A stretch of 64,000 nucleotides of DNA from Channallabes apus (taxonomy: Eukaryota; Chordata; Actinopteri; Siluriformes; Clariidae): the NCBI GenBank assembly GCA_030522415.1, contig CM060105.1, positions 11,450,206 to 11,514,205 of the forward strand. Reading direction: 5' to 3'. Below the pieces are notes generated by a model. That model worked only from the letters and a program-made list of their open reading frames with translations, had not been told where the DNA came from and ran no database searches. This document shows positions 2,045 to 63,640 of this stretch, piece after piece. A program made the position numbers and the translations under genes. Every line of letters begins with the position of its first letter. Position 1 is the stretch's first letter.

Positions 2045-3664
2045 CAGTGGTGTGAAAAACTATTTGCCTCCTTCCTGATTTCTTATTCTTTTGCATGTTT
2101 GTCACACTTAAATGTTTCTGCTCATCAAAAACCGTTAACTATTAGTCAAAGATAACATAATTGAACACAAAATGCAGTTTTTAAATGAAGGTTTACGTTA
2201 TTAAGGGAGAAAAAAAACTTCAAATCTACATGGCCCTGTGTGAAAAAGTGATTGCCCCCCTTGTTAAAAAATAACTTAACTGTGGTTTATCACACCTGAG
2301 TTCAATTTCTGTAGTCAACCCCAGGCCTGATTACTGCCACACCTGTTTCAATCAAGAAATCACTTAAATAGGAGCTACCTGACACAGAGAAGTAGACCAA
2401 AAGCACCTCAAAAGCTAGACATCATGCCAAGATCCAAAGAAATTCAGGAACAAATGAGAACAAAAGTAATTGAGATCTATCAGTCTGGTAAAGGTTATAA
2501 AGCCATTTCTAAAGCTTTGGGACTCCAGCGAACCACAGTGAGAGCCATTATCCACAAATGGCAAAAACATGGAACAGTGGTGAACCTTCCCAGGAGTGGC
2601 CGGCCGACCAAAATTACCCCAAGAGCGCAGAGACAACTCATCCGAGAGGCCACAAAAGACCCCAGGACAACATCTAAAGAACTGCAGGCCTCACTTGCCT
2701 CAATTAAGGTCAGTGTTCACGACTCCACCATAAGAAAGAGACTGGGCAAAAACGGTCTGCATGGCAGATTTCCAAGGCGCAAACCACTTTTAAGCAAAAA
2801 GAACATTAAGGCTCGTCTCAATTTTGCTAAAAAACATCTCAATGATTGGCAAGACTTTTGGGAAAATACCTTGTGGACCGACGAGACAAAAGTAGAACTT
2901 TTTGGAAGGTGCGTGTCCCGTTACATCTGGCGTAAAAGTAACACAGCATTTCAGAAAAAGAACATCGTACCAACAGTAAAATATGGTGGTGGTAGTGTGA
3001 TGGTCTCGGGTTGTTTTGCTGCTTCAGGACCTGGAAGGCTTGCTGTGATCGATGGAACCATGAATTCTACTGTCTACCAAAAAATCCTGAAGGAGAATGT
3101 CCGGACATCTGTTCGTCAACTCAACGTGAATCGATCTTGGGTGCTGCAGCAGGACAATGACCCAAAACACACCAGCAAATCCACCTCTGAATGGCTGAAG
3201 AAAAACAAAATGAAGACTTTGGAGTGGCCTAGTCAAAGTCCTGACCTGAATCCTATTGAGATGTTGTGGCATGACCTTAAAAAGGCGGTTCATGCTAGAA
3301 AACCCTCAAATAAAGCAGAATTACAACAATTCTGCAAAGATGAGTGGGCCAAAATTCCTCCAGAGCGCTGTAAAAGACTCGTTGCAAGTTATCGCAAACG
3401 CTTGATTGCAGTTATTGCTGCTAAGGGTGGCCCAACCAGTTATTAGGTTCAGGGGGCAATTACTTTTTCACACAGGGCCATGTAGGTTTGGATTTTTTTC
3501 CTCCCTAAATAATAAAACCCCTCATTTAAAAACTGCATTTTGTGTTTACTTGTGTTATCTTTGCCTATTAGTTAAATGTGTTTGATGATCAGAAACATTT
3601 TGTGTGACAAACATGCAAAAGAATAAGAAATCAGGAGGGGGGCAAATAGTTTTTCACACCACTG
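2045..3664 (+). mobile_element. Tc1/mariner transposon copy 1 (structurally complete)
   Basis: The element is bounded by TA (2043-2044 and 3665-3666) and has inverted termini beginning CAGTGGTGTGAAAAACTATT. Long terminal inverted regions flank a single transposase frame at 2424-3446. At 1620 bp this is the normal size for a full-length Tc1. It is inserted in the HARBI1-like gene between the residues of the 1990 fragment and those that resume at 3667. Four further copies of the same family lie in the window at 20042, 26740, 30403 and 43945. Confidence 0.95.
2424..3446 (+). CDS. Tc1 transposase, full-length open reading frame
   Basis: The 340-residue frame has the order expected of a Tc1 transposase. 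An N-terminal paired-like helix-turn-helix DNA-binding region occupies about residues 1-115, with a GRPTK linker near 59-63. The RNase H-like catalytic domain follows. The DDE triad is visible as D153 (WTDET), D244 (QQDNDPKH) and E279 (NPIEMLW), so the spacing is DD34E. The protein ends in the usual [11 protein letters not shown] tail. It would act in the nucleus, cutting at the element's termini and inserting at TA. This is the only one of five copies in the window with an uninterrupted frame. It differs from the other copies at residue 195 (Ser where they have Trp, in VMVWGCF) and around 228-238, so activity is uncertain. The start is fixed by the conserved MPRSKEIQEQ shared with all other copies. 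Confidence 0.93.
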   Translation: MPRSKEIQEQMRTKVIEIYQSGKGYKAISKALGLQRTTVRAIIHKWQKHGTVVNLPRSGRPTKITPRAQRQLIREATKDPRTTSKELQASLASIKVSVHDSTIRKRLGKNGLHGRFPRRKPLLSKKNIKARLNFAKKHLNDWQDFWENTLWTDETKVELFGRCVSRYIWRKSNTAFQKKNIVPTVKYGGGSVMVSGCFAASGPGRLAVIDGTMNSTVYQKILKENVRTSVRQLNVNRSWVLQQDNDPKHTSKSTSEWLKKNKMKTLEWPSQSPDLNPIEMLWHDLKKAVHARKPSNKAELQQFCKDEWAKIPPERCKRLVASYRKRLIAVIAAKGGPTSY

Positions 3665-3666
3665 TA

Positions 3667-3877
3667 TTTATATCACCATTCCTGGCCATCTACCAACACA
3701 GAGGATCAAGGAGAACTTTTATGCAATAGCAGGTATGTGACAGTTAAAGTAGATTTAAAAATTTATATGCCTGTATTAAGCTATATTTGTTCCTCGGGTT
3801 TTCCCAATGTCTTGGGTGCTGTGGACAGCACCCACATCAAAATACAGATCCCAGCTGGACCAACTGAGGCAGACTAT
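3667..3877 (+). pseudogene. HARBI1-like transposase, middle fragment
   Basis: Directly after the Tc1 insertion the Harbinger gene resumes with residues equivalent to RIKENFYAIA (around 3701-3731). After what may be a short intron it continues with GFPNVLGAVDSTHIKIQIPAGPTEADY (about 3797-3877). The VDSTHI stretch corresponds to the region around the first catalytic Asp of HARBI1-type nucleases (consensus IDGTHI). The fragment stops at 3877, where the retroviral 3' LTR begins, and the gene continues at 19547 on the other side of the provirus with NRKSFHSLNVQ. This makes the provirus an insertion into Harbinger coding sequence. Confidence 0.75.
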
Positions 3878-4113
3878 TGTGGTGGATTTTTTATTCTCCC
3901 CACACCGAAGTTGCCCTAATTTAAAACATTAAACAAATACTGTAACTTGAATAAAAAAATCAAAGAAAGACTCTGGATTCCGTGTAGATCTAGATGAAGT
4001 AAGGATAAGTTTTATTGCAACAATAAAATAAAGTGAGCCAGTCTTGAAGATGCCTAAGCTGTGAATCAGAGCATCACCAAGAACAGACTGATCTACTGTG
4101 ACATCGGTGCCTT

Positions 4114-4121
4114 CTTTTATA
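4114..4121 (-). promoter_or_regulatory. TATA box of the 3' LTR
   Basis: The minus strand reads TATAAAAG here, about 100 nt before the AATAAA at 4016-4011, the usual U3/R arrangement. The 5' LTR has the same box at 18773-18767. Confidence 0.75.
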
Positions 4122-4418
4122 CAGTTTTACAGGGGGCGGGACGCTCATCTGGCCCCCTCATTTGCTCATTATTTTTTCTGGTTCCTTATCAAATTTTTCA
4201 ACCAATAAAATTACATTTGCATTATACGTCATATACCTCGTTATCTGACTCCATCTTTTACCAAATTTTGCTTCCAATATAACTTATTTTCCTTTCAAAT
4301 TAGTTTCCATTATCTTTTCCCTTTTGTTGTTCAACTTAAAAAATATTGGGGTGGCGCTTATGTCTGCTGTAAATTCTTGGTGCTTCCGCTTTACACTACA
4401 GTTTTCAAGAGACAGGCC

Positions 4419-4959
4419 ATGGGTAAGCATCTTTTACATATTATTTTAATTATTGTCTAAGTTTGTGACTTTTATTGTATTTACATATTTTTATTCTTAT
4501 ATTTTTATTCTTATAGCTAATCGCATCTGCACGAATGATCACCACGTCGCTTTGGACAACTCGGACAGCCAGAGCAGTCCGGCTCACAGTCCTACTGACT
4601 ACACTCCTACTGAACCTGTCATGGACCGGGCCTCGGTGAGTTTTACTGAGGATGAGCCCGAGCCATCTGCTTCGTTACTGCAGTTCCTAGAGGAGACAGG
4701 GCTCACTTTTTCCAAGAATGTTGATCCCAAACCGGGTCCTTCGAAGAGGCCACGTGCGGATAGCCCTTATCCATTTTCTTTTAGGCCTGTACGGCCTGAA
4801 TCTACAACGCCAGCTCCGCTACTCTTAAGACCTGTTTGTCACGTAAGTGTTGGCACCCAGACCGATGTTAATGTGTCAGATGGTACCCAAACACATTTTC
4901 CTTCCGCACCTGTGCCAAATCCAAATCGCAGCATTTCTGTTTCTATTTCCTTTCACTGA
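4419..4959 (+). CDS. Antisense ORF inside the 3' LTR, probably spliced; unknown function
   Basis: On the plus strand, opposite to the provirus, an ATG at 4419 lies in a strong start context (G at -3, G at +4) and is followed at once by a splice-donor-like G/GTAAGC. A 94-nt AT- and T-rich segment (4423-4516) ends in TTATAG. Removing it keeps the frame with the ORF that runs to 4959, giving about 148 residues. An unspliced frame also exists from 4453, but its first 21 residues are only the translated T-rich tract. The predicted product is polar, rich in Ser, Pro, Thr and acidic residues, with a basic KRPR stretch and two GTQT motifs 12 residues apart, which resemble LC8-type TQT motifs (inference). 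I recognise no family. The C-terminal codons lie in sequence shared by both LTRs, while the rest is missing from the 5' LTR. Antisense, spliced LTR genes are known elsewhere (HTLV-1 HBZ), but homology is not claimed. It may also be a captured or chance frame. Confidence 0.5.
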
Positions 4960-5520
4960 TTTTTTTAATTAGTGTTGCCCTTCCTCACAGGAGGTTTTGC
5001 TAATTGACTTCTTATACATTTTATTTTGCTACTGATGCTTACCCAGGCCCTGTGTGTTTTTATACTTTTTTTATGTTGGGCCTAATACTTTGTATTGTAC
5101 AATATTCACTATGTAGATACACATACTATTTTGTGTCTATTTCTTTATTAAACTTATTATTCAGATCACTGAGGGTCTCTTTTGATCATTTAATTTAACA
5201 TGTTGCTTGTGTATCCAATACCTGTTACATCACAGTTAAGATCACCCCATGTCTGAGATTACATCATGTCTGGCGCTATGTCATATCTCCTGATCTGGTG
5301 TTGTTTCTAGGGTTACTATGAAATCTCTAAGATGGCTGCCAGTCTAAGGTTTGTTTGGTACATACTGTATACTGAACATCACATGATGTCTTTGGTACTA
5401 TGACATCACATTGTCCTTGGCTCAACTCTGTTCACTTCATCTCACATTCTTAAGATAAAATCAATAGTTTTCTGTAATATTACTGCATGCACAAATATAT
5501 GTAATTAAAATATGCTTACA

Positions 5521-6308: not shown

Positions 6309-6992
6309 TCAAAGCCATTTAAGCAGTCCATTAGGGTCCCTGTAAGTTAAAGATAGTGTGTCAAGATTTTCAGACCCCTCTTCAGTCCAGGTCTTACGAT
6401 CCTCGTCCGTGAATTCGATCACATACAGGTCCTTACAGCTTGCCAGCTGAGATAGCGGAATTCGGTTTATCCTGCCCGTTTCTAAACACAAAAAGTCTAA
6501 CCACACTTCATCGGCTTTTGGAAGAGCATCCAGCGCACGTTGCAGGGATAGCGGTGTATCTCTCCATAAGATGTCATCCCCCAACATTACTTTGGTTATG
6601 GTCTTAGTTGCTGCCATGTACACATCGTCAAATTCAACTATCCCACAAATATCATATGCAGCCCAATCCTCTTCGATCCCAATTCCTCTGTAGATGCCTA
6701 GCTTCAGATGTCTCCCAAGCTGATATGAAGTTGTTACCAGATGAAGTCGTGTGTTCATGTCAAGGTTGAACGTCTCCTGTGTCTTTGCTTTGATCCATTT
6801 GAAGTCCTTCGTCAAGACGTTGGCATTGGTGATGAATTCCTTGTTCCCTATCGTGCGTTGTGGATGCCAGTCAACTAGATCATGTCTCAATTCTGCCCAT
6901 TTTTTCTTCGGGGCCTTTTTCGCAACCTCGTTCCATGCGTTACAGCAAACTGTGCAGGAAACTATCCACCTTGGGTCAGGTACCAGTTCCAT
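6309..6992 (-). CDS. Accessory ORF downstream of env, unknown function
   Basis: An uninterrupted minus-strand frame encodes about 227 residues from the ATG at 6992 (MELVPDPRW). A splice-acceptor-like tract ending TATTGCAG/G (AG at 6995-6994) stands directly before this ATG. The longer frame that begins at 7061 only adds a translated pyrimidine tract (MSCILCFVFVFVFCFC), so I chose 6992. The protein has an early Cys cluster (CTVCC), a Trp-rich middle and no transmembrane segment or signal peptide. I do not recognise a family. Its position between env and the 3' LTR is that of regulatory genes in complex retroviruses (orfA/B of fish epsilonretroviruses, tas/bel of foamy viruses), so a regulatory or host-interaction role is a positional inference only. 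It is one of the few complete frames in the provirus. Confidence 0.65.
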   Translation of the reverse strand: MELVPDPRWIVSCTVCCNAWNEVAKKAPKKKWAELRHDLVDWHPQRTIGNKEFITNANVLTKDFKWIKAKTQETFNLDMNTRLHLVTTSYQLGRHLKLGIYRGIGIEEDWAAYDICGIVEFDDVYMAATKTITKVMLGDDILWRDTPLSLQRALDALPKADEVWLDFLCLETGRINRIPLSQLASCKDLYVIEFTDEDRKTWTEEGSENLDTLSLTYRDPNGLLKWL

Positions 6993-7220
6993 CCTGCAAT
7001 ACATACGGGTATAGCAGAAACAAAACACAAACACAAAAACAAAACACAAAATACAAGACATACTTCTACTAATACTACTTTTTCTCTGATATAGTTATTT
7101 AAAACATGGATTAAATAAGTTGGATTAAAAATATCGTGTTACACTAGATAAATTTTCAATATACATGTGATCAATAAGGATATAGTCAATTGTCCATTAT
7201 GCAGTGTAGTTGGTCTTCTT

Positions 7221-18529: not shown

Positions 18530-19542
18530 TGTGGTGGATTTTTTATTCTCCCCACACCGAAGTTGCCCTAATTTAAAACATTAAACAAATACTGAAACTT
18601 GAATAAAGAAATCAAAGAAAGACTCTGGATTCCGTGTAGATCTAGATGAAGTAAGGATAAGTTTTATTGCAACAATAAAACAAAGTGAGCCAGTCTTGAA
18701 GATGCCTAAGCTGTGAATCAGAGCATCACCAAGAACAGACTGATCTACTGTGACATCGGTGCCTTGTTTTATACAGTTTTACAGGGGGCGGGACGCTCAT
18801 CTGGCCCCCTCATTTGCTCATTATTTTTTCTGGTTCCTTATCAAATTTTTCAACCAATAAAATTACATTTGCATTATACGTCATATACCTCGTTATCTGA
18901 CTCCATCTTTTACTAAATTTTGCTTCCAATATAACTTATTTTATCAAATCGCAGCATTTCTGTTTCTATTTCCTTTCACTGATTTTTTTAATTAGTGTTG
19001 CCCTTCCTCACAGGAGGTTTTGCTAATTGACTTCTTATACATTTTATTTTGCTACTGATGCTTACCCAGGCCCTGTGTGTTTTTATACTTTTTTATGTTG
19101 GGCCTAATACTTTGTATTGTACAATATTCACTATGTAGATACACATACTATTTTGTGTCTATTTCTTTATTAAACTTATTATTCAGATCACTGAGTGTCT
19201 CTTTTGATTATGTAATTTAACATGTTGCTTGTGTATCCAATACCTGTTACATCACAGTTAAGATCACCCCATGTCTGAGATTACATCATGTCTGGCGCTA
19301 TGTCATATCTCCTGATCTGGTGTTGTTTCTAGGGTTACTATGAAATCTCTAAGATGGCTGCCAGTCTAAGGTTTGTTGGGTACATACTGTATACTGAACA
19401 TCACATGATGTCTTTGGTACTATGACATCACATTGTCCTTGGCTCAACTCTGTTCACTTCATCTCACATCCTTAAGATAAAATCAATAGTTTTCTGTAAT
19501 ATTACTGCATGCACAAATATATGTAATTAAAATATGCTTACA
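18530..19542 (-). repeat. 5' LTR of the provirus (1013 bp, short form)
   Basis: It matches the 3' LTR closely at both ends, with a TATA box at 18773-18767 and AATAAA near 18668-18663 on the minus strand. It lacks the segment present at about 4306-4922 of the other LTR. The junction lies near 18944, where TTATTTTA joins TCAAATCGCAGC. Because the two flanks of the missing piece are shared, a deletion in this LTR is the simplest explanation. Confidence 0.92.
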
Positions 19543-19546
19543 CTAT

Positions 19547-20041: not shown

Positions 20042-21650
20042 CAGTGGTGTGAAAAACTATTTGCCCCCCTCCTGATTTCTTATTCTTTTGCATGTTTGTC
20101 ACACAAAATGTTTCTGATCATCAAACACATTTAACTATTAGTCAAAGATAACACAAGTAAACACAAAATGCAGTTTTTAAATGAGGGGTTTTATTATTTA
20201 GGGAGAAAAAAAATCCAAACCTACATGGCCCTGTGTGAAAAAGTAATTGCCCCTTGAACCTAATAACTGCTTGGGCCACCCTTAGCAGCAATAACTGCAA
20301 TCAAGCGTTTGCGATAACTTGCAACGAGTCTTTTACAGCGCTCTGGAGGAATTTTGGCCCACTCATCTTTTCAGAATTGTTTTTATTTGAGGGTTTTCTA
20401 GCATGAACCGCCTTTTTAAGGTCATGCCACAACATCTCAATAGGATTCAGGTCAGGACTTTGACTAGGCCACTCCAAAGTCTTCATTTTGTTTTTCTTCA
20501 GCCATTCAGAGGTGGATTTGCTGGTGTGTTTTGGGTCATTGTCCTGCTGCAGCACCCAAGATTGCTTCAGCTTGAGTTGAGGAATAGATGGCCGGACATT
20601 CTCCTTCAGGATTTTTTGGTAGACAGTAGAATTCATGGTTCCATCTATCACAGCAAGCCTTCCAGGTCCTGAAGCAGCAAAACAACCCCAGACCATCACA
20701 CTACCACCACCATATTTTACTGTTGGTATGATGTTCTTTTTCTGAAATGCTGTGTTACTTTTACGCCAGATGTAACGGGACACGCACCTTCCAAAAAGTT
20801 CACCTTTTGTCTCGCCGGTCCACAAGGTATTTTCCCAAAAGTCTTGGCAATCATTGAGATGTTTTTTAGCAAAATTGAGACGAGCCTTAATGTTCTTTTT
20901 ACTTAAAAGTGGTTTGCGCCTTGGAAATCTGCCATGCAGGCCGTTTTTGCCCAATCTCTTTCTTATGGTGGAGTCATGAACACTGACCTTAATTGAGGCA
21001 AGTGAGGCCTGCAGTTCTTTAGATGTTGTCCTGGGGTCTTTTGTGGCCTCTCGGATGAGTTGTCTCTGCGCTCTTGGGGTAATTTTGGTCGGCCGGCCAC
21101 TCCTGGGAAGGTTCACCACTGTTCCATGTTTTTGCCATTTGTGGATAATGGCTCTCACTGTGGTTCGCTGGAGTCCCAAAGCTTTAGAAATGGCTTTATA
21201 ACCTTTACCAGACTGATAGATCTCAATTACTTTTGTTCTCATTTGTTCCTGAATTTCTTTGGATCTTGGCATGATGTCTAGCTTTTGAGGTGCTTTTGGT
21301 CTACTTCTCTGTGTCAGGTAGCTCCTATTTAAGTGGTTTCTTGATTGAAACAGGTGTGGCAGTAATCAGGCCTGGGGGTGACTACAGAAATTGAACTCAG
21401 GTGTGATAAACCACAGTCAAGTTATTTTTTAACAAGGGGGCAATCACTTTTTCACACAGGGCCATGTAGATTTTGAGTTTTTTTTCTCCCTTAATAACGT
21501 AAACCTTCATTTAAAAACTGCATTTTGTGTTCAATTATGTTAACTTTGACTAATAGTTAACGGTTTTTGATGAGCAGAAACATTTAAGTGTGACAAACAT
21601 GCAAAAGAATAAGAAATCAGGAAGGGGGCAAATAGTTTTTCACACCACTG
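20042..21650 (-). mobile_element. Tc1/mariner transposon copy 2 (inverted)
   Basis: The element is bounded by TA (20040-20041 and 21651-21652), with CAGTGGTGTGAAAAAC termini at both ends. It is the same family as copy 1 but lies on the minus strand, still inside the Harbinger-type element. The length of 1609 bp is nearly complete. Confidence 0.95.
20260..21272 (-). pseudogene. Tc1 transposase copy 2, catalytically broken
   Basis: The frame starts at 21272 with the family's MPRSKEIQEQ and is open for 323 residues. The first catalytic residue is lost: the WTDET motif reads WTGET, so D153 is Gly, and the next residues also differ (KGELF). Near residue 297 a deletion of about a dozen bases shifts the frame, so the C-terminus (NNSEKMSGPK onward) is out of register with copy 1. 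The second Asp (QQDNDPKH) and the Glu (NPIEMLW) remain. The product cannot be an active transposase. Confidence 0.9.
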
Positions 21651-26739: not shown

Positions 26740-28351
26740 CAGTGGTGTGAAAAACTATTTGCCCCCTTCCTGATTTCTTATTCTTTTGCATGTTTGTCAC
26801 ACTTAAATGTTTCTGCTCATCAAAAACCGTTAACTATTAGTCAAAGATAACATAATTGAACACAAAATGCAGTTTTTAAATGAAGGTTTACGTTATTAAG
26901 GGATTAAAAAACTTCAAATCTACATGGCCCTGTGTGAAAAAGTGATTGCCCCCCTTGTTAAAAAATAACTTAACTGTGGTTTAGAGTTCAATTTCTGTAG
27001 TCACCCCCAGGCCTGATTACTGCCACACCTGTTTCAATCAAGAAATCACATTAATAGGAGCTACCTGACACAGAGAAGTAGACCAAAAGCACCTCAAAAG
27101 CTAGACATCATGCCAAGATCCAAAGAAATTCAGGAACAAATGAGAACAAAAGTAATTGAGATCTATCAGTCTGGTAAAGGTTATAAAGCCATTTCTAAAG
27201 CTTTGGGAATCCAGCGAACCACAGTGAGAGCCATTATCCACAAATGGCAAAAACATGGAACAGTGGTGAACCTTCCCAGGAGTGGCCGGCCGACCAAAAT
27301 TACCCCAAGAGCGCAGAGACGACTCATCCGAGAGGCCACAAAAGACCCCAGGACAACATCTAAAGAACTGCAGGCCTCACTTGCCTCAATTAAGGTCAGT
27401 GTTCACGATTCCACCATAAGAAAGAGACTGGGCAAAAACGGCCTGCATGGCAGATTTCCAAGGCGCAAACCACTTTTAAGCAAAAAGTACATTAAGGCTC
27501 GTCTCAATTTTGCTAAAAAACATCTCAATGATTGCCAAGACTTTTGGGAAAATACCTTGTGGACCGACGAGACAAAAGTTGAACTTTTTGGAAGGTGCGT
27601 GTCCCGTTACATCTGGCGTAAAAGTAACACAGCATTTCAGAAAAAGAACATCATACCAGCAGTAAAATATGGTGGTGGTAGTGTGATGGTCTGGGGTTGT
27701 TTTGCTGCTTCAGGACCTGGAAGGCTTGCTGTGATAGATGGAACCATGAATTCTACTGTCTACCAAAAAATCCTGAAGGAGAATGTCCGGCCATCTGTTT
27801 ATCAACTCAAGCTGAAGCAATCTTGGGTCCTGCAGCAGGACAATGACCCAAAACACACCAGCAAATCCACCTCTGAATGGCTGAAGAAAAACAAAATGAA
27901 GACTTTGGAGTGGCCTAGTCAAAGTCCTGACCTGAATCCTATTGAGATGTTGTGGCATGACCTTAAAAAGGCGGTTCATGCTAATGAAAACCCTCAAATA
28001 AAGCTGAATTACAACAATTCTGCAAAGATGAGTGGGCCAAAATTCCTCCAGAGCGCTGTAAAAGACTCGTTGCAAGTTATCGCAAACGCTTGATTGCAGT
28101 TATTGCTGCTAAGGGTGGCCCAACCAGTTATTAGGTTCAGGGGGCGATTACTTTTTCACACAGGGCCATGTAGGTTTGGATTTTTTTCTCCCTAAATAAT
28201 AAAACCCCTCATTTAAAAGCTGCATTTTGTGTTTACTTGTGTTATCTTTGACTAATAGTTAAATGTGTTTGATGATCAGAAACATTTTGTGTGACAAACA
28301 TGCAAAAGAATAAGAAATCAGGAGGGGGGCAAATAGTTTTTCACACCACTG
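26740..28351 (+). mobile_element. Tc1/mariner transposon copy 3
   Basis: It is bounded by TA (26738-26739 and 28352-28353) with CAGTGGTGTGAAAAAC termini. The paralogous NLR block at 52420-52444 has the uninterrupted sequence ACATATAAGCTGGCC, which is the empty site and confirms a single TA target. Confidence 0.96.
27110..28134 (+). pseudogene. Tc1 transposase copy 3, C-terminal frameshift
   Basis: The frame opens with the family's MPRSKEIQEQ and keeps the complete DDE triad ([20 protein letters not shown]). After HAVHA-equivalent residues near 290 a 2-nt insertion (CTAATGAAAACC where copy 1 has CTAGAAAACC) changes the frame, so the reading ends at 28093 with a foreign 37-residue tail instead of the normal one at 28134. 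The catalytic domain is otherwise whole. Loss of the last 50 residues probably destroys function. Confidence 0.9.
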
Positions 28352-30402: not shown

Positions 30403-32006
30403 CAGTGCTGTGAAAAACTATTTGCCCCCCTCCTGATCTCTTACTCTTTTGCATGTTTGTCACACAAAATGTTTCTGATCATCAAACACATTTAACTATT
30501 AGTCAAAGATAACACAAGTAAACACAAAATGCAGTTTTTAAATGAGGGGTTTTTATTATTTAGGGAGAAAAAAAATCCAAACCTACATGGTCCTGTGTGA
30601 AAAAGTAATTGCCCCCTGAACCTAATAACTGGTTGGGCCACCCTTAGCAGCAATAACTGCAATGAAGCGTTTGCGATAACTTGCAACGAGTCTTTTACAG
30701 CGCTCTGGAGGAATTTTGGCCCACTCATCTTTGCAGAATTGTTGTAATTCAGCTTTATTTGAGGGTTTTCTAGCATGAACCGCCTTTTTAAGGTCATGCT
30801 GCAACATCTCAATAGGATTCAGGTCAGGACTTTGACTAGGCCACTCCAAAGTCTTCATTTTGTTTTTCTTCAGCCATTCAGAGGTGGATTTGCTGGTGTG
30901 TTTTGGGTCATTGTCCTGCTGCAGCACCCAAGATCACTTCAGCTTGAGTTGACGAACAGATGGCCGGACATTGTCCTTCAGGATTTTTTGGTAGACAGTA
31001 GAATTCATGGTTCCATCTATCACAGCAAGCCTTCCAGGTCCTGAAGCACCAAAACAACCCCAGACCATCACACTACCACCACCATATTTTACTGTTGGTA
31101 TGATGTTCTTTTTCTGAAATGCTATGTTACTTTTACGCCAGATGTAACGGGACACGCACCTTCCAAAAAGTTCAACTTTTGTCTCGTCGGTCCACAAGGT
31201 ATTTTCCCAAAAGTCTTGGCGATCATTGAGATGTTTTTTAGCAAAATTGAGACGAGCCTTAATGTTTTTTTTGCTTAAAAGTGGTTTGCGCCTTGGAAAT
31301 CTGCCATGCAGGCCGTTTTTGCCCAGTCTCTTTCTTATGGTGGAGTCGTGAACACTGACCTTAATTGAGGCAAGTGAGGCCTGCAGTTCTTTAGATGTTG
31401 TCCTGGGGTCTTTTGTGGCCTCTCGGATGAGTTGTCTCTGCGCTCTTGCGGTAATTTTGGTCGGCCGGCCCCTCCTGGGAAGGTTCACCACTGTTCCATG
31501 TTTTTGCCATTTGTGGATAATGGCTCTCACCCAAAGCTTTAGAAATGGCTTTATAACCTTTACCAGACTGATAGATCTCAATTACTTTTGTTCTCATTTG
31601 TTCCTGAATTTCTTTGGATCTTGGCATGATGTCTAGCTTTTGAGGTGCTTTTGGTCAACTTCTCTGTGTCAGGTAGCTCCTATTTAAGTGATTTCTTGAT
31701 TGAAACAGGTGTGGCAGTAATCAGGCCTGGGGGTGACTACAGAAATTGAACTCAGGTGTGATAAACCACAGTTAAGTTATTTTTTAACAGGGGGGGCAAT
31801 CACTTTTTTACACAGAGCCATGTAGATTTGGAGTTTTTTTTCTCCCTTAATAACGTATACCTTCATTTAAAAACTGCATTTTGTGTTCAATTATGTTATC
31901 TTTGACTAATAGTTAACGGTTTTTGATGAGCAGAAACATTTAAGTGTTACAAACATGCAAAAGAATAAGAAATCAGGAAGGGGGCAAATAGTTTTTCACA
32001 CCACTG
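30403..32006 (-). mobile_element. Tc1/mariner transposon copy 4 (inverted)
   Basis: It is bounded by TA (30401-30402 and 32007-32008). The left terminus reads CAGTGCTGTGAAAAAC, one base different from the family. It is inserted in the 5' part of the LINE. Confidence 0.95.
30622..31627 (-). pseudogene. Tc1 transposase copy 4, frameshift and stop
   Basis: The frame starts at 31627 with MPRSKEIQEQ. A deletion of about 17 bp after SKALG (near 31531) removes part of the DNA-binding helix region and shifts the frame; homology resumes as VRAIIHKWQKHG. A TGA after RQLKLK (30934-30932) then splits the catalytic domain between D153 and the second Asp. The rest (LQQDNDPKH to the normal C-terminus GGPTSY) is open to 30622. 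The copy is dead. Confidence 0.92.
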
Positions 32007-43944: not shown

Positions 43945-45346
43945 CAGTGGTGTGAAAAACTATTTGCCCCCTTCCTGATTTCTTATTCTTTTGCATGTTT
44001 GACACACTTAAATGTTTCTGCTCATCAAAAATCATTAACTATTAGTCAAAGATAACATAATTGAACACAAAATGCAGTTTTTAAATGAAGGTTTATGTTA
44101 TTAAGGGAGAAAAAAAACTCCAAATCTACATGGCCCTGTGTGAACAAGTGATTGCCCCCCTTGTTAAAAAATAACTTAACTGTGGTTTATCACACCTGAG
44201 TTCAATTTCTGTAGTCACCCCCAGGCCTGATTACTGCCACACCTGTTTCAATCAAGAAATCACTTAAATAGGAGCTACCTGACAGAGAAGTAGACCAAAA
44301 GCACCTCAAAAGCTAGACATCATGCCAAGATCCAAAGAAATTCAGGAACAAATGAGAACAAAAGTAATTGAGATCTATCAGTCTGGTAAAGGTTATAAAG
44401 CCATTTCTAAAGCTTTGGGACTCCAGCGAACCACAGTGAGAGCCATTATCCACAAATGGCAAAAACATGGAACAGTGGTGAACCTTCCCAGGAGTGCCCG
44501 GCCGACCAAAATTACCCCAAGGGCGCAGAGACGACTCATCCGAGAGGCTACAAAAGACCCCAGGACAACATCTAAAGAACTGCAGGCCTCACTTGCCTCA
44601 ATTAAGGTCAGTGTTCACAACTCAACCATAAGAAAGAGACTGGGCAAAAACGGCCTGCATGGCAGATTTCCAAGGCGCAAACCACTTTTAAGCAAAAAGA
44701 ACATTAAGGCTCGTCTCAATTTTGCTAAAAAACATCTCAATGATTGCCAAGACTTTTGGGAAAATACCTTGTGGACCGACGAGACAAAAGTTTAACTTTT
44801 TGGAAGGTGCGTGTCCCGTTACATCTGGCGTAAAAGTAACACAGCATTTCAGAAAAAGAACATCATACCAACAGTAAAATATGGTGGTAGTGTGATGGTC
44901 TGGGGTTGTTTTGCTGCTTCAGGACCTGGAAGGCTTGCTGTGATAGATGGAACCATGAATTCTACTGTCTACCAAAAAATCCTGAAGGAGAATATCCGGC
45001 CATCTGTTCGTCAACTCAAGCTGAAGCGATCTCGGGTGCTGCAGCAGGACAATGACCTAAAACACACCAGCAAATCCACCTCTGAATGGCTGAAGAAAAA
45101 CAAAATGAAGACTTTGGAGTGGCCTAGTCAAAGTCCTGACCTGAATCCTATTGAGATGTTGTGGCATGACCTTAAAAAGGCGGTTCATGCTAGAAAACCC
45201 TCAAATAAAGCTGAATTACAACAATTCTGCAAAGATGAGTGGGCCAAAATTCCTCCAGAGCGCTGTGAAAGACTTGTTGCAAGTTATCGCAAACGCTTGA
45301 TTGCAGTTATTGCTGCTAAGGGTGGCCCAACCAGTTATTAGGTTCA
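43945..45346 (+). mobile_element. Tc1/mariner transposon copy 5, 3' end missing
   Basis: The left end is normal (TA at 43943-43944, CAGTGGTGTGAAAAAC), inside a TATATA run. The right end stops at about GGTTCA just after the transposase stop; the 3' terminal region and inverted repeat are absent. Confidence 0.93.
44322..45341 (+). pseudogene. Tc1 transposase copy 5, nonsense mutation
   Basis: The frame opens with MPRSKEIQEQ and runs to a TAA just after WTDETKV (44793-44795), two residues past the first catalytic Asp. Reading then continues in the same frame, and a second open stretch begins at 44811 and goes to the normal end at 45341. One glycine codon of the GGG in YGGGSVMV is missing, and there are some substitutions (DNDLKH for DNDPKH). 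The stop alone makes it non-functional; the 3' terminal repeat is also lost. Confidence 0.93.
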
Positions 45347-53566: not shown

Positions 53567-55537
53567 TTGAAACCGAAACCGAAAGAGACTTTCCCGTTTT
53601 GTTTGAACTTCATGATGTTAAGCGACGAGGACAACAAAGAAGTCTCGACAGAAGATAGTGTGTCACAAATTTCGGCGGCTGAGCCACAAGGAAGTGTAAC
53701 GTCCGCGGCTTCCTCATCTCGCCGCAAACAAGAAGCCGGCAGAGCAGCTCTGCTGGCAAAGGCAGCAACCTTGGACGAACCTCTCGAGTTAGAAATGGAG
53801 GAGGCACAACTAAAGGCAAAAAGAGAAAGGCTGGAAACCAAAATGGCGCTCGCTATGTATGATGCCAAATTAAGAGTGCTTCAACGTCAAGATCGTGAAG
53901 GACAACAGCCAGCAACAGAGAGCGCAGTCATTGAACCGAGCAGTGCCTACGTGAGCAGCGCGCACTTCTGCAACAATGGATATGACTGCCGACGACAGCC
54001 GGTGAGAGAGAGTCATTGAACCGAGCAGCCTGTACTTTCAAAACTCGGAATGCAATGAACTTTACCAGCACGTTGCGTCGACGGACTATTGCGAACTGCC
54101 ATCCCGTCTACAGGCAGCCCACGTAAGTGTGCCCATCAGTGCCAGACCTACAATGGCAAGTACTCTAAATGAATGTCCTACCGTAAACAATGAACACATA
54201 AGTCAATGTTTCGATACATCATATTCTCAAATGCCAACGCTCCACGGGGCAGCGCACTCAGGTGTGCCCATGAGCGCAAACACACACAACTGACAAATTC
54301 CTTAAGGGACACCCGAGATCATGATTCCCTACATCATGGACTTGACACAATGCATCACCAAATGCAACGTCAGGCAGAACTCACAGAAATGCTGGAGGGG
54401 GGCCAAATGTTGTTCTCGTTGCCTCGGCACGACCTTTCTCCGTTTTTCGACCCGATTCAGTTAAAATCTTTCATGTTGTCCTTTGAACGCTTCGTGGAAT
54501 CCAAAATGGACAATGACATCGATAAGCTGTCATATCTCGAACTGTACACCAAAGGGGAACCCAAAGACCTTGTAACGAGCTGCATGCACATGACAGATGG
54601 GTATGCAAGAGCAAAGAAACTGCTGCGCGAGAGGTTTGGAAACGAGCTGAGAATTGCAGCAGCTTGTAAGCAAAAGGCAATTAATTGGCCAAACATAAAG
54701 ACAGACGACGGACGGACGTTAAGCGCCCTCTCCTCTTTCCTGACAACTTGCCAAAACGCAATGGCAAACTGTGAATCTGTGGACGAGTTGAACAGCAGCG
54801 AGTGCATGAACACCATTCTTACGAAACTGCCCTACAAGCTGATCAACAGGTGGAAGTCTTGCGCACGCCAGCACTATGAGCACTACGGGACAAGAGCCAA
54901 GTTCGCCCAGCTGGTGGACTTCATAGATCAACAAGCCAGACTGTACTCCGACCCGCTCTTCGCCGACCTGGACGCCATGACCAGCAATAAGAAACACGGT
55001 CGCACATCCCTTCAAGGACACAAACAAAAAAGGGAAGGAAAAGCCAGGGTCAGCTTTGCAACCGACGTCAGACAGGTTGGTAAAATTCACAAAGACTCAA
55101 TTACAATGAAGAATGCCGGTACGTTAGCTGTTAGCGCTTTCACTAAGCCATGCGCATATTGTAAAAACTGCCACATCTTAGAAGAGTGCGTAAGATTTAA
55201 CGATCAGACACACAAAGACAAAGTAGAATTCATAAAAAAGAATGGATTCTGTTTCGAATGTTTAAGAAAGGGTCATTTGTGGAAAGACTGTACCAGAAAA
55301 ATTATATGTTCATTGTGTTCAAAGCCACATCCTCGCATGCTATACAGAGCAGTGCAAGACACGGCGCAGTTAGTTACAAGCGCCAACGAAAACGAAACTG
55401 AAAGCAACACAACAAATACACCACCTGCAGTGAGTCACGAATCAAATGGGCTCACTGGGGCTGGAGTTAATTGCATCCTCCCCATAGTACCTGTCAAAAT
55501 AAAGTCCAGGAAAGGTGACAAAATAACATGGATGTGA
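53567..55537 (+). pseudogene. BEL/Pao gag (frameshifted)
   Basis: The N-terminal part (from MMLSDEDNKE, 53597) has the coiled-coil, Ala/Lys/Glu-rich region with RAALLAKAATL and LEMEEAQLKAKRERLE typical of Pao gag. At about 54000-54020 the frame changes next to a small repeat (ATTGAACCGAGCAG occurs twice). Another change near 54290 leads into the main frame, 54206-55537. That contains the DUF1759-type capsid region (FDPIQLKSFMLSFERFVESK, GYARAKKLLRERFGN, INRWKSCARQHYEHYG) and zinc-knuckle-like Cys motifs (CAYCKNCHILEEC, CFECLRKGHLWKDC, CSLCSKPHP). It would form the particle of this LTR retrotransposon. Confidence 0.85.
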
Positions 55538-56782
55538 AGTGTATGCATTTATAGACCAAGGCAGTTCCGTCACATTCTGTACAGAGTCATTAGCAGGGCA
55601 ATTAAATGTACAAGGCAGAAGAGTTAAGATACGGCTGAGCACCATGAACTCCGCAAACTAGTAGAAAGCTACATGCTCAGTCATTTGGAGATCAGTAGCC
55701 TGGAAGAAAACACCTTTATTAAACTTCCCAACGTCTTTACACAAACGAATATCCCAGCTACAGTGGAAAGTATTCAACAACAGCACGACATCAACCAGTG
55801 GCCCTACCTTAGCGATGTAAAGTTGCCCCAGATTAATGCTGAAATCGAAATTCTCATAGGAAATAAAGAGCACAAACTCCTAGAACCGTGGCGAGTAATT
55901 AATAGCAGGCATGACGGGCCATACGCAGTACAGAATGCTCTCGGATAGACTGTGAACGGGCCTCTCCGAGAACCCGATGAACCAGCGAGCATTAGAGTTA
56001 ACTGAACCTCCATTGAAAGTGTAGAACAAATGCTGATACAGCAGTTCAACCACGATTTTCCCGAACGAAATTGTGATGATAAGGCTGAGTGGTCACAGGA
56101 AGACTATCAGTTTCTAGACTCCGTGAATAACTCATTGCAGTTCATAAATAATCACTACCACATCGGCCTTCCACTAAAAAAGGCAGTCATTTAAATGCCA
56201 AATAACCGAAGTGCAGCTATGCAACATGCATTAAACCTTAAACAAAAACTTAGCAGCAACAGCTCCTTTCACGAGGAGTACACAAACTTCATGAATGACA
56301 TGCTAAAAAAGGGTCATGCAATCAAGGTACCTACACATCACGTTAACTGCCAAGACGGTCATGTGTGGAACATACCGCATCATGGCGTCTATCATCCTCA
56401 AAAGAATAAACTGAGGGTGGTTTTTGACTGTGCTGCCAGTTATCAAGGAGTGTCACTAAATAGTGAGCTCCTACAAGGACCAGACTTAAACTCACTCATC
56501 GGCGTGCTCACACGCTTTAGACAAGAAGAAATTGCCATGAAGGCAGATGTAGAAGCCATGTACTATCAAGTGAGTCCCCGAGAAGGACACAGATATGCTG
56601 AGCTTCCTATGGTGGCCAAACGGAGACCTGAACCAAGATCTAGTTGAGTATAAGATGGTAGTTCACTTGTTTGGTGCAAAATCATGTCCTAGCGTTGCTA
56701 ACTTTGCCCTTAGAAAGACAGCAGAAGAAAACCGCAGCAATGTACCTGCTGTGGCAGTTAACACAGTGCTTAAAAACTTTTA
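55470..56782 (+). pseudogene. BEL/Pao pol: protease region and first half of reverse transcriptase
   Basis: Residues LPIVPVKIKSRKGDK, then after a frame change AFIDQGSSVTFC (about 55545-55580), mark the aspartic protease (DUF1758) of Pao elements, with DQGS at the active site. The frame reading YLSDVKLPQINAEIEILIG and PWRVINSRHDGPYAVQNALG ends at a TAG (55946-55948). A stretch equivalent to NGPLREP and then SVEQMLIQQFNHDFPE leads to RT, open from 56195. It contains MPNNRSAAMQHALNLKQKL, RVVFDCAASYQGVSLNSELLQGPDL and MKADVEAMYYQV with a catalytic Asp. Another frame change occurs near 56600. The last codons, KNFY, end at the TA target of the inserted foldback element at 56781. Confidence 0.87.
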
Positions 56783-62238: not shown

Positions 62239-63640
62239 CGTCGACGACTGCTTGAAGTCTGTGGCAACCCAGGATCAAGCAGTCGCCCTGTACAATGAGC
62301 TCACAAGCCTTTGTGCTAGTGGAGGGTTCAACCTCACTAAGTAGGCAAGCAACAGCCGTGCCCTACTGACCTCCATACCCGAAAGCGAAATGATCAAAGA
62401 CATGAGAGACTTAGACTTGAGTAAAGACGCACTGCCCCTTGAGAGAGCTCTGGGGGTGTTGTGGTGCATTGATTCAGACACGTTCATGTTTAAGATTAGT
62501 TTAAAAGAACGACCTGTGACAAGACGAGGAATCCTGTCAATCACTAGCTCAATATACGACCCCTTAGGCTTTCTCGCACCGGTCATACTGCCAGCTAAAA
62601 TTTTAATGCAGCAGTTCTCTAAAAGAAAAACTTGCATGGGATGACGACATTCCCGAACAGTTTGCAAAGGCATGGAAAACCTGGCTGCAAGAGTTGCACC
62701 GACTGTCCAAGTTCATCAAGATGCATAAAACCAGCTGACTTCGGAGATACAGCTACAGCGCAACTTCACCACTTCTCGGATGTGAGTGAAATGGGATACG
62801 GAGTTGTCTCATACCTCAGGTTAGTAAATGCTGACGGACTCACACATTGTGCATTCATGATGAGGAACTCGCGTGTAGCACCTCTAAAACAAACCACCAT
62901 TCCCAGAATGGAACTAACGGCGGCAGTGATCGCTGTAAAAAATGACAAAATGTTGAAAGAACAGCTAGAATTGAAATTGCTGGACTCTATGTTTTGGACT
63001 GACAGTACAACCGTTTTGAGATACACTGATAACGAAACACTTCGTTTTAAAACCTTTGTGGCCAACAGAATCGCCACTATAAGAGAGTCAACCAAGTCAC
63101 AGCAATGGAGGTACGTTAATACCTCAAAAAACCCAGCTGATTCTGCCTCCAGGGGGGTATCCTGTGAAAAGTTCATGAAAAACGTCGACTGGATCCATGG
63201 TCCCTCCTTTCTCAAAGAAGCAGAGTGCAAATGGCCTGAAAACATTCATGACACATCAATAAAAGAAAATGATGATGAAATTAAGCTCTCAGCTTTAGTG
63301 AATATTATGAGCATTACAAAATGCACCGACGCAGTGAGTAAATTGATTAATCATCACTCTGATTGGCACAAGTTAAAAAGATCCGTTGCCTGGATCCTTC
63401 GCATCAGAGACATGCTCAAACAAAAAAGGGTCAAAACAAAAATAGATAACCCAAAGATAGAAAGTCACAAGTCGCTAACAGTTCAAGACCTAACAAGAGC
63501 AGAAAACGAAATTATTAAATTTACTCCAGGACAAAATTTTAAGGAAGAAATTCTCACGTTGCAAAAGTGTAAAGCAGCAGCAGAATTCAAACAGGGAATT
63601 CCCACACAGCAAAAATGCAAGGCATCTGTATAAAGAAACA
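62239..63640 (+). pseudogene. BEL/Pao pol: end of reverse transcriptase and RNase H
   Basis: Right of the inserted element the RT continues with VDDCLKSV, LYNELTSLCASGGFNLTK and a TAG at 62342. Then come [12 protein letters not shown] and [33 protein letters not shown], a signature of Pao pol. A frame change at about 62630 leads to a 333-residue frame holding the A17/RNase H part: HHFSDVSEMGYGVVSYLR, IPRMELTAAVIAV, MFWTDSTTVLRYTDNE and WRYVNTSKNPADSASRG. These acidic motifs (D, E, D) match the RNase H active site. It ends with a linker of repeated LQKCKA / QQKCKA units and a TAA at about 63631. Confidence 0.88.

Follow-up and report, generated by a model that had tools for sequence, protein, structure and literature searches.

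Does the long terminal repeat (LTR) of a fish endogenous retrovirus (ERV) carry a spliced, protein-coding gene on the strand opposite to the provirus? This question is raised by a 64,000-nucleotide (nt) stretch of the genome of the catfish Channallabes apus (GenBank assembly GCA_030522415.1, contig CM060105.1, positions 11,450,206 to 11,514,205; hereafter the window), in which a provirus lies in minus-strand orientation and an open reading frame (ORF) runs on the plus strand. An initial annotation had proposed a spliced antisense ORF inside the long LTR of a fish ERV, and its description held up. The ATG in strong context, the GTAAGC immediately after it, the 94-nt T-rich segment and the TTATAG acceptor are all present where it had placed them, and the downstream frame, which it put at about 146 codons, is open from 4516/4517 to a TGA and gives 147 residues when the alanine at the splice-completed codon is counted. 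The whole gene lies inside the U3 region of the 3' LTR. Selection on the frame and a Clarias gariepinus gene model with the predicted spliced start also support the proposal. We conclude that this is very probably a protein-coding antisense gene in an LTR, and the sequence makes it likely that the gene belongs to a virus-encoded, divergent and spliced antisense transcription unit in the U3 of a class I fish retrovirus.

The other five frames of 4517-4920 have 4 to 11 stop codons each. Coding of this region on the sense strand is ruled out, because there are stops in every minus-strand frame (5, 5 and 9). The length of the antisense frame is unusual for chance alone, but not decisive. Among 1000 first-order Markov LTR sequences, 5 had a stop-free run at least as long as the longest in the LTR (169 codons), and a run of at least 146 codons was found in 16 of 1000 sequences with the composition of exon 2. 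It is the comparative evidence that carries the case beyond chance.

Selection on the frame and conservation of the splice signals

All DNA copies compared here come from one host genome (1.16 Gb, 93 contigs), and in each search of it only the best candidates were scored. Probing the genome with the ORF region yielded 638 first-look candidates. The best 40 of them, window included, were 95-100% identical; 31 have the 147-codon frame, one is open with an altered tail, and 8 are broken. Because these 40 had been picked with the ORF region itself, a second choice was made by the flank at 4970-5500 alone, taking the 40 best of 636 candidates, which are the window's near kin and include both of its LTRs. 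Here the full frame is found in 24, in-frame indels in 2, and a broken frame in 11, while 3 (the window's 5' LTR, L088 and L092) lack all or part of the region. Given that the family is young, counts of intact frames alone cannot decide the matter. A search with the protein gave 787 candidates, and 144 of the best 150, selected by protein score, have no inner stop. Among these 150 are 34 same-strand neighbor pairs 13.8-17.1 kb apart; since this is the spacing of an LTR pair, the gene is often present at both ends of a provirus.

We counted parsimony steps on an alignment of 92 rows (94 were prepared, and L088 and L092 were dropped because the region is incomplete), part of which had been chosen by protein score, on trees built from the same stretch of sequence in which the steps were counted. 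We assumed that internal branches stand mostly for the virus while it was replicating and terminal branches mostly for decay once a copy had integrated. The internal steps at codon positions 1, 2 and 3 number 29, 30 and 100 (p = 2.5e-14). Without CpG columns they number 22, 17 and 38 on 119, 112 and 105 sites (p = 7e-4), and the terminal steps are unphased (81/59/76, p = 0.12). Internal phase without terminal phase is as expected under selection in the viral lineage followed by relaxation after integration. The noncoding stretches, also without CpG columns, gave 31/21/34 downstream, 16/21/23 in the intron and 2/6/2 upstream. The internal rate per site is 0.75 at position 3, 0.88 in the intron interior, 0.72 in the downstream LTR and 0.22-0.23 at positions 1 and 2.

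The mean pairwise nonsynonymous divergence divided by the mean synonymous divergence (dN/dS) is 0.29 for 65 unique of 68 rows, the 22 single pairs printed ranging from 0.23 to 0.64, and the corresponding ratio of proportions (pN/pS) over 92 rows is 0.31. Under a null that preserves the substitution spectrum, divergent copies have an excess of synonymous change (L042 and L048, 0/2000; L041, P = 0.0015; L050, 0.002; L047, 0.014; L049, 0.04). Together with the codon phase, these ratios indicate purifying selection at the level of the protein, a property of retroviral antisense protein genes. The initial annotation had considered that its proposal would fall if related LTRs had the frame closed as often as expected by chance, and these signatures of selection speak otherwise.

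At the start of the gene, ATGGGT is intact in 64 of 68 aligned copies, with one internal step over the 4 sites of the ATG and following G. The GTAAGC donor has no internal and 3 terminal steps over 6 sites, against the rate given above for the intron interior. Donor GT and acceptor AG are both kept in 34 of the 37 flank-selected LTRs that have the region, as is expected of a GT-AG intron in related copies, the exceptions being L076, L089 and L078. We also considered placing the true start at an upstream ATG (4360) and rejected it as not conserved; of 90 rows, 52 have C and 38 have T at its second base, which looks like a decaying CpG.

Relatives and features of the predicted protein

A word-based search of ~5.8 billion proteins (E <= 10, limited to similar lengths) returned just two homologues, and no function is named for either. 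One of them, P0003, is LOC128540840 of Clarias gariepinus (161 amino acids (aa), 74% identity over 99%). It begins MANRICTN, and MANRIC is the exact product of joining 4422 to 4517. It is at most about 80% identical to the scored matches in the window's genome and, judging from this, is not one of the scored copies there. The other, P0002 (190 aa, 74% identity), comes from an 863-nt contig, starts MGKH and runs through an in-frame version of the same intron into ANRIC. The initial annotation had suggested searching fish LTRs and proteomes for relatives of the product; the protein search gave these two, one with the predicted spliced start, but this same search gave no host homologue, which leaves its option of a captured gene unsupported. 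The protein has no Pfam family up to E = 1, its one match in the PDB (E = 1.8) was taken as chance, and none of the 73 stretches of IMG/VR viral contigs that fitted the pattern was confirmed as a relative.

The composition (17 Asp and Glu, 11 Lys and Arg, 21 Ser, 21 Pro) and the positions of the motifs agree with the first description of the product as acidic and Ser/Pro-rich, with a KRPR patch and two GTQT motifs. The AlphaFold2 model has a mean predicted local distance difference test (pLDDT) score of 57 and a predicted template modeling (pTM) score of 0.18, and the protein is predicted to be mostly disordered except for a helix at residues 52-61. The acidic segment LLQFLEETGLTF could be activation-domain-like, and KRPR is a candidate nuclear localization signal. 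Conserved blocks are HSPTDYTPTEP, EDEPEPS..LLQFLEE, SKRPR.DSPY, RPESTTPAP, KPVCH and the two GTQT (or GIQT) motifs. A longer C-terminal tail (..PLTDLQIG.VLPxRR or similar) is present in L041, P0002, P0003 and partly in L049 and L050, and the abundant young family is without it.

Both TQT motifs are kept in 87 of 92 rows under a loose pattern ([TIV]QT plus D/E/N or D/E/H), and only 7 of 20000 shuffled proteins have at least two TQT. The first motif is VNDGTQTD in P0003. With pLDDT below 50 at residues 113-135, TQT-type anchors are found in a disordered region, as they are in LC8/DYNLL-binding proteins. We also tried silent-site excess as support for these motifs and it failed; their support is identity across divergent proteins only.

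Weighing the alternatives

Several observations weigh against reading the locus as a spliced, protein-coding gene of the virus. When CpG columns are included, the terminal steps are phased as well (114/91/174, p = 2.6e-7), and CpG decay accounts for part of the silent-site excess. In four close copies the values for synonymous excess are 0.017 (L044), 0.05 (L043), 0.06 (L018) and 0.31 (L035). Along the frame, the silent excess is clear in the middle (internal steps 4/5/19 in codons 36-65 and 9/10/61 in codons 66-109), weak at the start (10/7/13 in codons 2-35, or 3/5/10 without CpG columns) and absent at the end, where the TQT motifs are (6/8/7 in codons 110-135, or 6/5/0 without CpG columns). 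The second motif of the window is the weaker VSDGTQTH, and both homologues have VSVGTQTA there, with Ala and not Asp. The acceptor is not conspicuously conserved and does no better than the intron (AG, 1 internal and 2 terminal steps over 2 sites; CTTATAG, 4 internal over 7). Indel calls against the window row in 67 copies number 133 in 79 nt of intron and 7 in 405 nt of exon 2, a contrast that is supportive only, because the calls are counted per copy, many are common by descent, and the runs of T in the intron slip easily. The Clarias gariepinus model may be computed rather than read-supported, and P0002 looks like a gene call that ignored the intron. The window's own 5' LTR has lost the antisense gene. 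Two LTRs separated by 14.8 kb on a single contig, L084 and L085, share a break at codon 52, which looks as though the copy had transposed with its gene already broken or gene conversion had followed later.

Some of these points would suit a chance open frame in a young repeat, with constraint coming from U3 enhancer DNA or from recent common descent: position-3 change is inflated by CpG decay, 11 of the 40 flank-selected copies are broken, and a run this long does occur in a few of the random LTR-like sequences (5/1000, as above). Constraint at the DNA level has no codon phase, however, and the phase on internal branches persists without CpG columns. With the silent excess in divergent copies and a 74%-identical annotated protein in Clarias gariepinus, we consider chance very unlikely. 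If instead the gene codes for protein but is unspliced, starting at the internal Met36 (4621) with ATGG/GTAAGC...AG unused, then the variable acceptor is accounted for, as is the fact that reading from 4419 without splicing meets a stop after 13 codons in the window. Constraint is also clearest from codon 36 onward in the ten-row divergent set, where pN/pS is 0.35, compared with 0.68 in codons 1-35. Over all 92 rows, however, codons 1-35 have a pN/pS of 0.37, the donor is without internal change, the Clarias gariepinus model begins MANRIC, and the exon-like scarcity of indels begins right at the acceptor, so an unspliced gene seems quite unlikely to us.

Capture of a host gene or another mobile element by the LTR, or its insertion there, is distinctly improbable as well. 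An intron-containing gene in a retroelement looks host-derived, and just one of this provirus's two LTRs has it, but the short form is the exception, since 37 of the 40 flank-selected LTRs hold the region. The gap in the 5' LTR relative to the 3' LTR has a two-base junction and no target-site repeat. Because the junction lacks a target duplication it suggests deletion, and the short 5' LTR most plausibly arose by a later deletion; on the strength of this junction and of the region's presence in those 37 LTRs we rejected insertion of a transposable element into the 3' LTR. The lack of any host homologue in the protein search described above and of a Pfam match also speak against capture, though an ancient capture, by now eroded past recognition, keeps some small probability. 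Finally, the antisense RNA itself could be the functional product, with the protein secondary, and the available text of a review mentions noncoding roles reported for retroviral antisense transcripts (PMC10186651). Given that selection is seen at the protein level, we think this unlikely, although the RNA may have a role of its own beside the protein.

A candidate transcription unit and its place among known systems

The features that bear on the reading as a spliced antisense gene of the virus are listed in Table 1. Frames for gag, protease, pol and env lie between the LTRs, all on the minus strand, so that the antisense ORF is opposite to gag-pol-env, as HBZ- and ASP-like genes are. A 4-bp target repeat, CTAT, borders the provirus on both sides (3874-3877 and 19543-19546), and a polypurine and primer-site context can be read from the sequence. 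TGGTGACCCCGACGTGAT, adjoining the 5' LTR, is a candidate primer site that we take to resemble tRNA-Trp. The reverse transcriptase (RT) piece has its best match in p80 RT structures (4hkq, E 5.8e-68), presumably gammaretroviral, and the Moloney murine leukemia virus RT 1mml is also listed (2.1e-53). The integrase matches MLVIN_C over its cut-off and the transmembrane (TM) ORF matches TLV_coat under that family's cut-off. Based on RT and integrase, the TM-type env and the 4-bp repeat, the provirus can be assigned by sequence to the class I (gamma/epsilon-type) ERVs. Between env and the 3' LTR there is a sense ORF that looks like an undescribed 3' accessory gene. Its product matches nothing in Pfam up to E = 1, and its sole database relative is P0004 (81% identity over 68%).

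Table 1. Positions in the window of the antisense gene, the motifs of its predicted product, and the surrounding LTR and provirus features
Feature	Position	Strand	Remarks
Exon 1, coding part (ATG+G)	4419..4422	+	Context GCCATGG (4416-4422); from sequence, conserved in copies
Intron GTAAGC...TTATAG	4423..4516	+	94 nt, T = 54; GTAAGC at 4423-4428, TTATAG ending at 4516
Exon 2, rest of antisense ORF and TGA	4517..4959	+	TGA at 4957-4959; purifying selection; homologues P0002 and P0003
LLQFLEETGLTF, residues 54-65	4675..4710	+	Overlaps the sole predicted helix (52-61); pLDDT ~82 at residues 51-60; conserved in relatives
KRPR basic patch, residues 77-80	4744..4755	+	K77 and R78 invariant in 21 aligned proteins
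TQT motif 1, VSVGTQTD (residue 110)	4843..4866	+	GTQTD invariant in 21/21; candidate LC8 anchor
TQT motif 2, VSDGTQTH (residue 120)	4873..4896	+	Elsewhere mostly VSVGTQTD or VSVGIQTD
Conserved upstream block	4300..4418	+	119 nt, almost indel-free; candidate antisense promoter/5' untranslated region
Sense TATA box TATAAAA	4115..4121	-	~300 nt from antisense ATG, divergent; every base the same in at least 53 of 54 LTRs
ATTAAA, candidate antisense poly(A) signal	5147..5152	+	Inside LTR; bases 1-5 invariant in 54/54, base 6 in 52/54
3' LTR	3878..5520	-	1643 nt; 99% identity to second LTR in common parts
5' LTR, same provirus	18530..19542	-	Without ~629 nt matching 4291-4921, hence without antisense gene
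Sense 3' accessory ORF, env to 3' LTR	6309..7061	-	250 aa, family unassigned

Elsewhere in the window there are several near-alike transposase frames in both orientations (2424-3446, 20301-21272, 27110-28093, 30934-31581 and 44322-45341), which we take to be of the Tc1/mariner type; one of them is a full 340-aa frame right beside the provirus. The frames at 54206-56647 and 62632-63633 are a candidate Pao/BEL-type retrotransposon, a guess from their translations.

We compared conservation along the LTR in 54 nearly whole LTRs out of 63 rows tried. The block just upstream of the antisense ATG has 0.050 shared-variant and 0.008 gapped columns per site, compared with 0.10-0.12 and 0.19-0.71 in four noncoding stretches of the LTR outside the gene, and these 119 nt are conserved and indel-poor to the degree of the exon. 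With the divergent TATA box on one side and ATTAAA on the other, the arrangement looks like a bidirectional promoter and a closed antisense unit within the LTR. Because the ATG, the intron, the 147-codon exon and ATTAAA are all inside the LTR, any full-length LTR would carry the gene.

In the mechanism that we propose, RNA polymerase II would start between the sense TATA box (4115) and 4419, and the antisense transcript would be spliced 4422/4517 and polyadenylated after 5152. From what is known of the retroviral cycle, reverse transcription would leave the intron in place, since the genomic RNA is of the sense strand and the segment is no intron there. The tandem GTQT motifs would bind the host hub LC8/DYNLL and so pair two copies of the product, and the acidic LLQFLEETGLTF helix would contact the transcription machinery, tuning LTR transcription much as HBZ does, for persistence or latency. 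Of the functions that the product could have, such a nuclear regulatory adaptor, dimerized by LC8/DYNLL and tuning LTR transcription, is the likeliest, though it is a tentative proposal based on its motifs. We are similarly hesitant about the wider picture, in which a lineage of class I fish retroviruses may have evolved a self-contained spliced U3 gene, every full LTR, solo LTRs included, would be an autonomous antisense cassette, and the product, an LC8-dimerized disordered regulator controlling the LTR by a route unrelated to HBZ, would be the first antisense protein for an endogenous or gamma-type retrovirus.

The available text of a 2023 review finds that evidence for antisense proteins is lacking in endogenous retroviruses and that none is reported for gammaretroviruses (PMC10186651), and that of a 2021 review describes antisense ORFs in gammaretroviruses and human ERVs as little known and perhaps yet to be found (PMC8622228). 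We recognized no precedent for an antisense protein in a fish or an ERV in the accessible portions of the literature, where coverage of subscription journals is thin; the topics covered were retroviral and ERV antisense genes, antisense ORFs of LTR retrotransposons, fish accessory genes and catfish ERVs. This locus supplies an ERV antisense candidate in which selection is seen at the codon level, the donor has not changed on internal branches and Clarias gariepinus has an annotated homologue. It also shows how a retroelement can retain an intron, through its antisense position relative to the genomic RNA. If the reading as an antisense regulatory gene is true, such genes have arisen in retroviruses other than the delta- and lentiviruses, there is an explanation for one kind of unusually long LTR, and the hundreds of copies make the fish genome a large reservoir for a regulatory gene of viral origin.

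HBZ is the antisense bZIP factor of human T-cell leukemia virus type 1 (HTLV-1), a deltaretrovirus, and its main form is spliced. The catfish gene is like HBZ in being antisense to the provirus, in its putative 3' LTR-associated promoter, and in its product, which has an acidic segment and may be of a regulatory type. Unlike HBZ, the whole gene is contained in U3 and can therefore be present in both LTRs, and the virus is a class I fish ERV. The initial annotation had cited HTLV-1 as a precedent without similarity, and this was borne out, as there is no bZIP domain or other Pfam family up to E = 1 and HBZ is not among the database matches.

Human immunodeficiency virus 1 (HIV-1) has an LTR antisense gene, HAP, reported in the U3-R region according to the available text (PMC1654176). 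The antisense frames of HIV-1 ASP/HAP are driven by the LTR, as is proposed here, but they belong to another virus class, and the catfish gene has an intron, codon-level selection and a frame that dozens of copies retain. The sag gene of mouse mammary tumor virus encodes a superantigen in the U3 of a long LTR, on the sense strand. It is thus also a protein gene in the U3 of a long LTR, but the catfish gene is antisense and has its own intron, and the sense strand of the region is not an open U3 frame.

In the accessible text of PMC6607443, VSRGTQTE is given as the most favorable LC8-binding peptide by phage display (citing Rapali et al. 2011), and many TQT peptides are said not to bind LC8. 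The catfish product resembles LC8/DYNLL-binding proteins in its disordered region with two GTQT motifs, the first near VSRGTQTE, and may bind LC8 itself; it differs in that our searches found no homology to a known LC8 partner. The 3'ORF of snakehead retrovirus is a sense-strand gene. The available text on that virus describes an additional gene of regulatory type close to the 3' end of this fish retrovirus (PMC12193657), to which the sense ORF at 6309-7061 adds a further likeness, and it differs from our locus in that the 3'ORF is not antisense and no antisense gene is mentioned in that text. Taken with these systems, the strategy is known from HBZ and HIV-1 ASP/HAP, and what is new at this locus is the virus class, the architecture, entirely in U3 with its own intron, and an unrelated protein.
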